Source of the DNA: Candidatus Woesebacteria bacterium
Lineage (GTDB): Bacteria > Patescibacteriota > Microgenomatia > Woykebacterales > 2-01-FULL-43-14
NCBI GenBank assembly: GCA_020060105.1
Contig: JAGVAV010000004.1
Span: forward strand, 1 to 42,558
DNA: 42,558 nt
Reading direction: 5' to 3'
Shown here: positions 31,873 through 35,671 of the stretch, piece by piece
Position numbering within the stretch: the first letter of the stretch is position 1
How the letters are laid out: each line of letters begins with the position of its first letter
Position numbers and translations under genes: made by a program
The notes under the pieces: generated by a model
Told to the model about the DNA's origin: nothing
The model's database searches: none
What the model saw: only the letters and a program-made list of their open reading frames with translations

Positions 31873-31918
31873 TACTTTTGCGATAAAAAGCCCAGAATTG
31901 AAAGGAGAAGGAAAAGTC

Positions 31919-32374
31919 GTGAAAGCACACGGGAATACCATCGCTTGGTTTTGCTATGACGACCGATTCGCTAAAGGCTTTTTCGAATTTACTTGCAAAA
32001 CATCGGGGGAGACTTTCTTCCCTATCACCGGCCCTGGCGGCCCTCTCCCAGCCATTGTAGAGCCAAACCATCAAGACTGGGGTAAGCTCAGGTATGCGGT
32101 TGGCATTATCGCTCAACAGGGACCTCAGAAGTGGCTTAAAATCCTTACCTTCACCCACGATGATTGTGCGTGGGTAAATGACTGTCAGTTCCCAGGCGAG
32201 CCTTGCGGATGGGCATCGCAAATCCAAACGGAAATTTCTAAAAGATTATCCCAGTTTCCAGGGAGAATCGTTTTGGAAGCTTATCACGCAACGATAGGAG
32301 AGGAGGATCGTGTCCAGTTCACGATTGTTTCGATAAGCCATCACAATATCTGGAAAGAACTTGTGTCTCTATAG
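31919..32374 (+). CDS. hypothetical protein
   Basis: GTG start with SD AAAGGAG; own promoter; tandem hairpins/terminator after stop. Confidence 0.65.
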   Translation: MKAHGNTIAWFCYDDRFAKGFFEFTCKTSGETFFPITGPGGPLPAIVEPNHQDWGKLRYAVGIIAQQGPQKWLKILTFTHDDCAWVNDCQFPGEPCGWASQIQTEISKRLSQFPGRIVLEAYHATIGEEDRVQFTIVSISHHNIWKELVSL

Positions 32375-32376
32375 AG

Positions 32377-32444
32377 GTAACTCACAATAAAGTGAGTTAC
32401 TTATCTTCGCGGAGTAGTTACAATGAAGTAGCTGCTCCGCTTTT
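32377..32444 (+). terminator. tandem hairpins ending in rho-independent terminator
   Basis: GTAACTCAC-AATAAA-GTGAGTTAC then GCGGAGTAGTTAC-aatgaa-GTAGCTGCTCCGC-TTTT. Confidence 0.8.
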
Positions 32445-33599
32445 CATTGTGCGACATCGCCTCCAAAACCGCTCAGAACCATTTGAGCTTCGACCAGTGT
32501 TTCAAGTTTTTATTTGAGATAGGATCAACCCGTTGTCTCTTAGTAATCGGAAAAAGCAGCAGCGATAAATTATTTAAAACTAAAAATAAGATCGAAAACG
32601 ATGAATCCGTGGTATCAGCAAACCCAGGCAAGAAGAACTGGTTTTGGGGTTTCAGCCCCGCATCCCGAGGCGCTGTAAAGGCCTAGAACGCCCCTTTGGG
32701 GGATTGGTGGACGGTAGGACCTCTTAAAATTATTTTGTCCCTTAGAAAGGATCGTCAGGTCAAGTAAATTTAATATTTTGATAGTCAAAAACTTATCGTC
32801 AAAAGTTTTCTCAGTTAGAACCGAAGCTGGGGACCATTTTAAAGCCTTTTTAGCGTTTTATTTGTAAGTGAAAATCCCAAGACTAAACAAAGTCGGCTTT
32901 TTCGTGAGCCAATAAAAAATTAGCTTTAATGTCGGATAAGATACATTGTACGACATTAGATAAAACACTAGCCCAGAAGGCCAAAGAGATTAAACAGTAG
33001 GAGGAGAGAAGGCCTCTTAACCATACCTTCTATCAAACAGTTTATATTCCTTTCCCGCGATGTTTTATGTTTTCTTTCTCCTCTTTAAAAGTATCTAATT
33101 TAGACGAGAATAAGTAAGGCAGGCTTACCCTAGGTCGTTCGGGTAATTTTAGTAAGCGTAAATTTTTGAGAAGTTTTAGATTGGGGACAGTAGAAACTAA
33201 GAGCCCCATCTAAAAAGGTCATTAGCACTCAAATCCTACAGCCGCTGGAAATTTAGGAGTTATCCACAATACTTTTAACTCTACCTATCTTCCCCCTCCG
33301 TAAGTCCTATAATAATACTTTCCACGCGTGGAAATTTCTGCATCAAAGTGTACCACCTAAACTTCCCTCACTCCTCTACTCCTACCTGGCAGGGGAATTT
33401 TTAAAACCCTCCTCTACCCTAATTTTAAAATTAAAATATTTTTTAGCTTTCTAATTAAAAACGCTTTATTTTTAACCAACACCTTAAAGATAAGTTTAAT
33501 TCCCCTTCTCCCTAACTCAAGAAACCCAAACCAAACTTTCGCTAAAAAGTCCGTTAGATCAATCTAATTTATATCTTTTCTGGAAAAAAGAGGCGCGTT

Positions 33600-34379
33600 T
33601 CAGGCTCCCCAACGGGTAAGAAAGACCATTAGGGAGAAAACAGCAAAACTGACAAAAATGTACTCGAAGACCACTTGACGATTGAGGCTGTTTTTTAACT
33701 TATGTTGCACAACTCCTAAAAAGACGTATAAAGCCGCGGTGAGCACCAAACCGGCATTAAGAGGTTGAAGAGGCCAAAAGCTAAACAAAAAAGCAATCTC
33801 GCCGATCACCAGGCTTAAAATCACGGAACTTAAGATAATGTTAGCGTTAAGATGTTCCTCCAGTTCTATCTGCCATAAGGCTTGAATAAAAAGCAAGGTT
33901 GAGGTAAAAAAGGTAATTAAACTAAGCATCCAACCATCAAGATAAAGATTGCCAAGTAGAGAAAAAAGGACAAAAGCCACGGTTAAAGTCGCTAAATAGC
34001 CCACCGTATGGGCGGCCCGAATTAGAGGAATGCTTCTTTTCGCCGCCACGTTAAAGATGTTTTCGGCGAGCAGTATCACATACATCACGGCCCCAAACCC
34101 CACCAAGCCCCCAATTCGGTAAGGCACCGAAGGTAAAAAACTAAAATAAATTAGCCCAACAGTTAGGGTAAACGAAACAGGTAGAACAAAAAGGGTCAGA
34201 AATTCAATTCCCTCTAAATCATGATACAAAATCCAAGCGGAAAGTAGATAGCTAGCAATAACTATTCCCGCCAAAAAAGTTCTTCGCCAATCATAAACGA
34301 TATCAGGCAACAAAAATATCCCTAAAGAAAGGAGCAATATTGAGATGATAATTTTATATCTTTTAGTGAGAAACAGCAT
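33600..34379 (-). CDS. multi-pass membrane protein of unknown function
   Basis: About seven hydrophobic segments; downstream of ruvC on same strand. Confidence 0.7.
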   Translation of the reverse strand: MLFLTKRYKIIISILLLSLGIFLLPDIVYDWRRTFLAGIVIASYLLSAWILYHDLEGIEFLTLFVLPVSFTLTVGLIYFSFLPSVPYRIGGLVGFGAVMYVILLAENIFNVAAKRSIPLIRAAHTVGYLATLTVAFVLFSLLGNLYLDGWMLSLITFFTSTLLFIQALWQIELEEHLNANIILSSVILSLVIGEIAFLFSFWPLQPLNAGLVLTAALYVFLGVVQHKLKNSLNRQVVFEYIFVSFAVFSLMVFLTRWGA

Positions 34380-34404: not shown

Positions 34405-34914
34405 CTATGACTCGGTGTTTGACAATTTACCTTTTATTACATGACAAATGGCGATCGCCAAAGCATCCGCCGCGTCGTCAATATAACCTGATTTTGGTTT
34501 GACAAACTCTTTAATGTTTAGTCTTTCCTTAACCGCCGTCTGCATTTGTTTTTTATCCGCCCGTCCATAACCAGTCAAAGTTTGCTTGACCGCTAAGCCC
34601 TGATATTCAAAAAAGGAAATATTATTCTCGGCGATTGTTACCATAACCACCCCTCTCGCCTGTCCAACCGTCATCGCCGTTCGAGAGTTCGCCCCAAAAA
34701 AAAGCTGTTCAACTATCGCACAATCTGGACTGAATCGGTTAATTAGTTGTTGAAGTTCGTTTCTTAATATCAATAGCCGCTCGGTCATCGGCTTTTCTGG
34801 CGGCGTGCTGATACAACCGTAATCAAGAGCCTCAAGAGTGCCGTTGATTTCCGAAGTTCTTAAAACTCCCCATCCGGTTGTCGCCGTGCCGGGATCTATG
34901 CCTAATATTAGCAT
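34405..34914 (-). CDS. ruvC: crossover junction endodeoxyribonuclease RuvC
   Basis: ILGIDPGTATTGWGV, VEQLFFGANSRTAMTVGQARGV, DDAADALAIAICH. Confidence 0.95.
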   Translation of the reverse strand: MLILGIDPGTATTGWGVLRTSEINGTLEALDYGCISTPPEKPMTERLLILRNELQQLINRFSPDCAIVEQLFFGANSRTAMTVGQARGVVMVTIAENNISFFEYQGLAVKQTLTGYGRADKKQMQTAVKERLNIKEFVKPKSGYIDDAADALAIAICHVIKGKLSNTES

Positions 34915-34921
34915 CTTACCC

Positions 34922-35671
34922 TCAGGTAATATTAATTAACTCTTCCGGTATATCAAAGTTAGCGTAAACTTTTTGAACATCGTCAAGTTCTTCTAACTTA
35001 TCCATTAAGCTTAACACTTGTTGAGCAACTTTCGGATCCTCGATTTTCAAAGTCGTGGTTGGCCGATAGGTCATATCTGATTGTTTTACCACAAAACCTA
35101 GGTTTTCCAAAGATTTTCTCGCTTCGTCTAAATTTTCCGGCCTAAAATAAATAACTACTGTCCCGTTAACTACCTCCGCGTCTTCTGCCCCCGAGTCCGC
35201 CGCCTGAAGAACTGCTTCTTCAGGATCCGCATCTCCCAATTCAATAACAATTTCCCCCATAGGATTAAACATCCAAGAAACTGAACCAGGCCCAGCCAAA
35301 CTTCCTCCCGAACGCTCAATAACGCTTCTCACCGCGGAGGAAGTTCTCTGACGGTTGTCAGTCGCCGTGCTTACTAAAATCGCCACACCTCCCGGCCCGT
35401 AACCTTCATAGTTAACTTCTTCTAGTTTAGCCGCGCCTTCAATTCCACCTGTTCCCCGAACAATAGCCCTTTCAATGTTTTCTTTAGGCATATTAATTGC
35501 CTTAGCTGCCTCAATTGCCAAACGCAATTTAAAGTTAAACTCAGGACTACCTCCGCCTTCCCTCGCCGCAATGGTGATTGCGTTAGCGGCTTTGGTAAAT
35601 TGCTGACCGCGTCGAATATCCGCAACTCCCTTTTGTCTCTTTATGGTCGACCACTTGGAATGCCCCGACAT
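34922..35671 (-). CDS. yebC: YebC/PmpR family regulator
   Basis: MSGHSKWSTIKRQKGVADIRRGQQFTKAANAI; GYGPGGVAILVSTATDNRQRT. Confidence 0.95.
   Translation of the reverse strand: MSGHSKWSTIKRQKGVADIRRGQQFTKAANAITIAAREGGGSPEFNFKLRLAIEAAKAINMPKENIERAIVRGTGGIEGAAKLEEVNYEGYGPGGVAILVSTATDNRQRTSSAVRSVIERSGGSLAGPGSVSWMFNPMGEIVIELGDADPEEAVLQAADSGAEDAEVVNGTVVIYFRPENLDEARKSLENLGFVVKQSDMTYRPTTTLKIEDPKVAQQVLSLMDKLEELDDVQKVYANFDIPEELINIT

Follow-up and report, generated by a model that had tools for sequence, protein, structure and literature searches.

A gene-free block in a Candidatus Woesebacteria genome as a probable dif locus with a linked motif cassette

Introduction

Why should a bacterium of the candidate phyla radiation (CPR) keep more than 1.1 kb of its chromosome free of genes? 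The question is raised by a block at positions 32447–33599 of the window analysed here, a 42,558 bp stretch of a Candidatus Woesebacteria genome. A preliminary description of this DNA, made from the sequence alone, drew attention to the compactness usual in CPR genomes and proposed three candidates for the block: one or more unrecognised structured RNAs, a decayed element or a chromosomal site. The last of these was correct. In our analysis the block is the dif locus of the chromosome, within the replication-terminus region, with a probability of about 0.92 that is attached to the identification of dif itself; a cassette of short motifs is linked to the site.

Most of what is known of the CPR, a huge group, comes from fragmented genomes. 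A dif site would be an easy sequence marker for the replication terminus in part of this group, of use in orienting assemblies and in estimating growth rates. In the open-licence PMC literature, no paper pairing Patescibacteria with a dif site was found, and a search for the candidate phyla radiation together with dif matched only a growth-rate method paper. The motif cassette at the side of dif seems not to have been described previously.

Results

The block lies between convergent genes, at 31898–32374 on the plus strand and 33600–34379 on the minus strand, and contains no recognisable gene, both as originally reported. Its sole ORF of at least 60 aa, a 79-aa frame with a TTG start (32447–32686), had no NCBIfam or Pfam match. 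The impression of unusual length was also well founded: across 105 related loci, gene-free stretches of at least 500 bp are rare outside the surroundings of the dif site, and the gap around dif has a median of 634 bp versus 9.5 bp for the other gaps of the same loci. With a stricter ORF threshold, the medians around dif were 747 bp in loci with the cassette and 631 bp in loci lacking it, and those of other gaps were 6.5 and 19.5 bp, respectively. At CPR dif loci such a length is normal, the median gap being about 630–750 bp and other gaps 7–20 bp.

The inverted repeat at 32927–32958, which the preliminary description had placed exactly, is very probably the dif site. The first sign was a BLAST search of the block against 94 relatives, in which short matches fell on the same 24–30 bases and the surroundings were unmatched. 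A pattern derived from these matches (GTCGNAWAAGATACATTGTRCGAC, with up to three mismatches allowed) found a 24-bp core, GTCGnAwAAGATACATTGTrCGAC (9-6-9), about once per genome in 193 of the 374 genomes of the class, as opposed to one of 374 for a reversed-pattern control; because related genomes are not independent, such counts overstate significance. The site is single copy in its own genome, and almost always so in the 193 genomes matched. The arms are symmetric at 9 of 11 positions and are conserved across the class, while the 6-bp centre varies (GATACA, GTTATA, GTATCA and others), as would be predicted for a tyrosine-recombinase site. In GTDB, the exact consensus occurs in 105 DNA stretches, and among the matches listed (80 of the 105) every record with a named lineage belongs to the CPR, including Shapiro-, Davies-, Beckwith-, Magasanik-, Kaiser-, Moranii- and Saccharibacteria. 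No copy was found in the viral contigs searched. Identity to the dif site of Escherichia coli is 17/28; other, unrelated 28-mers of the window equal or exceed this value by chance, so that taken alone it is not significant. The strand was assigned by the best fit of the 6-bp centre to E. coli dif; the assignment of the XerC and XerD arms by similarity to E. coli is ambiguous, as only the centre favours one orientation. With three mismatches allowed, roughly half of the genomes in the class were unmatched, and their dif sites may have diverged, as in genome G001. There, an apparent dif at about position 2019 of locus L055 has a degenerate left arm (GGCTGTTTAGTAATATTGTACGAC), and its right arm and cassette are intact.

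Table 1. Features of the window considered in this study (coordinates are those of the whole window).
Feature	Position	Strand	Remarks
Xer-type tyrosine recombinase gene, 308 aa	19419..20345	-	TIGR02225/TIGR02224, PF00589; 12.6 kb from dif
Terminator-like hairpin	32409..32440	+	13-pair stem, then T-rich tail; follows the left-hand gene and lies immediately outside the block
dif site (very probable), 28 bp	32929..32956	-	ATGTCGTACAA-TGTATC-TTATCCGACAT, 11-6-11
TTAGCACTC	33222..33230	+	Conserved or nearly so in the order (alignment)
DnaA box TTATCCACA	33260..33268	+	Outward-pointing; 329 bp separate it from the start of the dif core
CCTATAAT motif	33306..33313	+	Up to several copies, in both orientations, in relatives
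Perfect 16-bp palindrome TTTCCACGCGTGGAAA	33319..33334	.	Single copy in own genome
Degenerate pair of 10-bp-period repeats CTGCATCAAAGTGTACCAC	33338..33356	+	Alignment with G002, G003 and G007
Gene for DUF5656-type membrane protein	33600..34379	-	Pfam PF18900, E 6e-12; constant neighbour of the cassette
ruvC	34405..34914	-	PF02075 and synteny; frequent neighbour
yebC	34922..35671	-	PF01709 and synteny; frequent neighbour

The position of the site on the chromosome was taken from relatives, because the genome itself is fragmented (40 contigs) and shows no local flip of GC skew inside the window. With dnaA located in single-contig relatives, dif was found, in five complete genomes, where the G-rich arm next to dnaA ends. 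In G050 (820,489 bp, of which 800 kb was read) the cumulative GC-skew minimum, at 371,722, lies beside dnaA at 370,592, and the arm of positive skew extends to about the dif site, at 664,920; the leading-strand bias of words declines to neutral at dif, in an analysis trained without the sequence beyond the site. For the four further genomes, each represented by 20 sample points, the arc from dnaA to dif is the richer of the two in G; in G016 it ranks first among all sampled partitions. The arms are unequal, with dif at 0.36–0.41 of the circle from dnaA rather than 0.5 in the five genomes tested for skew. A search for FtsK-orienting words identified no KOPS-like word among the leading-strand words. 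Directly beyond dif, the GC skew of G050 is near zero (contig C1, about 680000–800000), as if forks meet anywhere in that stretch. Two other complete genomes, G071 and G090 (loci L224–L263), have skew of one sign round the whole chromosome, all positive in the former and all negative in the latter, and only its magnitude shifts at dnaA and near dif; either the asymmetry between the strands is unusual here, or the pattern arises from an oddity of assembly.

Two Xer-like recombinases are encoded in the genome, one in the window and the other by a 298-aa ORF on contig C13, as is an FtsK (PF01580, E 1.4e-49, contig C6). The Xer-like gene in the window scores E 3e-72 with TIGR02225 and E 7e-72 with TIGR02224, both below the equivalog cut-offs. 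Its orthologues lie 0.16–1.3 kb from dif in 32 of the loci with a cassette, their starts most often 270–720 bp away, and this adjacency links the enzyme to the site independently of chromosomal position.

A second conserved feature, recovered by word enrichment, a motif table and alignments, is the cassette at 33222–33356, downstream of dif. In the Microgenomates it occupies one fixed side of dif in a fixed orientation, and includes a DnaA box (TTWTCCACA) and repeats of 10-bp period, ACTATATCA-N-ACTATATCA; in many cases an inverted TGATATAGT precedes the repeats, and those repeats are degenerate in the window. The characteristic words also include CCTATAAT/ATTATAGG and CGTGAAAA/TTTTCACG. Cassette 9-mers are enriched 20–90 fold near dif, an enrichment found by searching many words; the orientation of the DnaA boxes was not selected for in this way, and in the relatives all 61 DnaA-like boxes that lie no more than 700 bp from dif point outward, where about six in either direction would be expected from their density elsewhere. 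The box lies mostly 128–194 or 294–327 bp from dif, and 12 bp separate it from the repeats in 24 loci. Because ACTATATCA reads the same backwards, the reversed-pattern control is void for the repeats. The motif TTAGCACTC, identical to one half of the CIRCE operator of HrcA, is conserved or nearly so within the order, and the other half of CIRCE does not accompany it. The palindrome TTTCCACGCGTGGAAA is shared within the order, being single copy also in G001, G002, G003 (with one mismatch) and G007, and was absent from the other genomes searched except G039 (one mismatch). It was considered as a parS site and rejected, as its likeness to the parS consensus falls short of a match, and it is sited at the terminus.

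Beyond the cassette, a homologue of the DUF5656 gene lies beside dif in 43 of 55 loci with a cassette versus none of 54 loci lacking one, and is usually followed by yebC and, in some lineages, by ruvC. The cassette faces the 3′ end of the DUF5656 gene, and so is not its promoter. The membrane protein itself is a candidate for a role linked to the terminus.

The remaining observations bear on the proposal that the block encodes RNA. All of the named hairpins are present, including the TTACCC/GGGTAA pair and the long stem at 33174–33215 (−14.7 kcal/mol), but the suggestion of dense structure held only in part. Compared with dinucleotide shuffles, only two places stand out in folding: 32380–32499 on the plus strand (z −5.7), where the terminator-like hairpin lies, and 32860–32979 (z −4.6), which contains the dif palindrome. 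Windows clear of both range from about z −2.6 to +1.4, against a window background with a mean of −0.06 and an sd of 1.1; the listed stems thus mostly represent ordinary folding.

Discussion

Two of the three candidates put forward for this block can be set aside with some assurance. That it gives rise to an unrecognised structured RNA, or more than one, is very unlikely. The terminator-like hairpin and the TATAAT-like words in the cassette would suit such transcripts, but an Rfam scan of the block at the gathering score gave no match (at E values up to 10 the matches were at chance level), a search for tRNA and tmRNA found none, and folding is unremarkable outside the terminator and the dif palindrome. 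Nor does comparison with relatives reveal the conserved pairing that an RNA would be expected to keep: the stem at 33174–33215 has no counterpart in the alignment, the inverted half-site TGATATAGT changes and its partner does not co-vary, and what is retained is a set of short motifs at variable spacing. Variable spacing with no compensating pairs points to DNA-binding proteins rather than RNA. A decayed element, or the remnant of one integrated at dif, is more improbable still. Some mobile elements do use dif, but the order of the cassette motifs and the neighbouring genes are conserved across many genera of the class, no viral contig carries the site, and the genome has no second copy of dif.

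The site itself invites comparison with the dif/XerCD system of E. coli and most bacteria, which likewise has a 28-bp near-palindrome with a 6-bp centre, present about once per chromosome at or near the terminal switch in skew, together with FtsK and two Xer proteins. It differs in its GTCG-based arms, and in the conserved cassette of DnaA box and repeats that is linked to dif in the Microgenomates. The proximity of an xer gene to dif in the relatives recalls the tendency of xerC genes to lie near dif (Kono et al., PMC3025954). In streptococci, XerS is genetically linked to difSL (PMC2731167), and many Microgenomates loci resemble that system, and XerH/difH of Helicobacter, in having the recombinase gene adjoin the site. 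Unlike those systems, two Xer-like proteins are encoded here, which fit XerC/XerD far better than the XerS model, and in the window the gene is not adjacent. By analogy with the known Xer/dif pathway, from which we infer the steps, resolution of dimers at dif by Xer and FtsK is expected: an odd number of crossovers would yield a chromosome dimer, at the septum FtsK would pair up the two copies of dif, and cutting and strand exchange by the Xer proteins at the 6-bp centre would leave two monomers.

The cassette is most likely a protein-binding control or accessory DNA element tied to dif. The specific form that we favour, although we put it at well under even odds, is an accessory region that would regulate or polarize Xer recombination, or couple it to replication. 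The plasmid sites cer and psi offer a precedent, as they combine a core with a protein-binding region (ArgR, PepA, ArcA) that lies one to a few hundred bp away on one fixed side. The Microgenomates cassette is comparable in its fixed side and orientation beside a core; it differs in being chromosomal and associated with FtsK, and its motifs (DnaA box, CCTATAAT and TATATCA-type repeats) include no known accessory-protein box. Slightly more tentative is the proposal that the Microgenomates possess a terminus control element, in which a cassette of fixed polarity linked to dif binds DnaA and at least one further protein. If this is true, dimer resolution or termination would be tied to the replication initiator, and the DnaA-box cassette, if functional, would represent an unexpected connection between initiator and terminus.

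The main alternative to an accessory region is that the cassette could titrate or reset DnaA, in the manner of datA or DARS, or act as a polar fork barrier at the terminus. We regard this as rather doubtful, even though the consensus DnaA box next to dif, whose outward polarity is fixed, and a non-coding design of multiple motifs would both suit it. The sites datA, DARS1 and DARS2 are reported to be non-coding DNA with DnaA boxes and other motifs (PMC4585315), a description that the cassette would share as far as its sequence goes; it differs from them in its linkage to dif at the terminus and in usually having a single box per side, and the named Parcubacteria dif loci have no DnaA box. It is less probable again that the cassette is only a promoter or operator of xer, with dif in the xer leader. 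In the 32 loci with a nearby xer, the gene starts beyond dif and is read on the minus strand in the direction leading away from the site, and CCTATAAT occurs in the cassette on that same strand; both would suit such an arrangement. However, 23 loci with a cassette have no xer within 1.5 kb (locus ends cut some of them short), and the cassette is likewise retained with no xer beside dif in the window, G002 and G003; its persistence in these loci argues that the cassette is not the xer promoter alone.

An outward-pointing DnaA box also occurs at five Saccharibacteria dif loci (L112, L138, L140, L156 and L177), where it lies on the side opposite to that seen in the Microgenomates.
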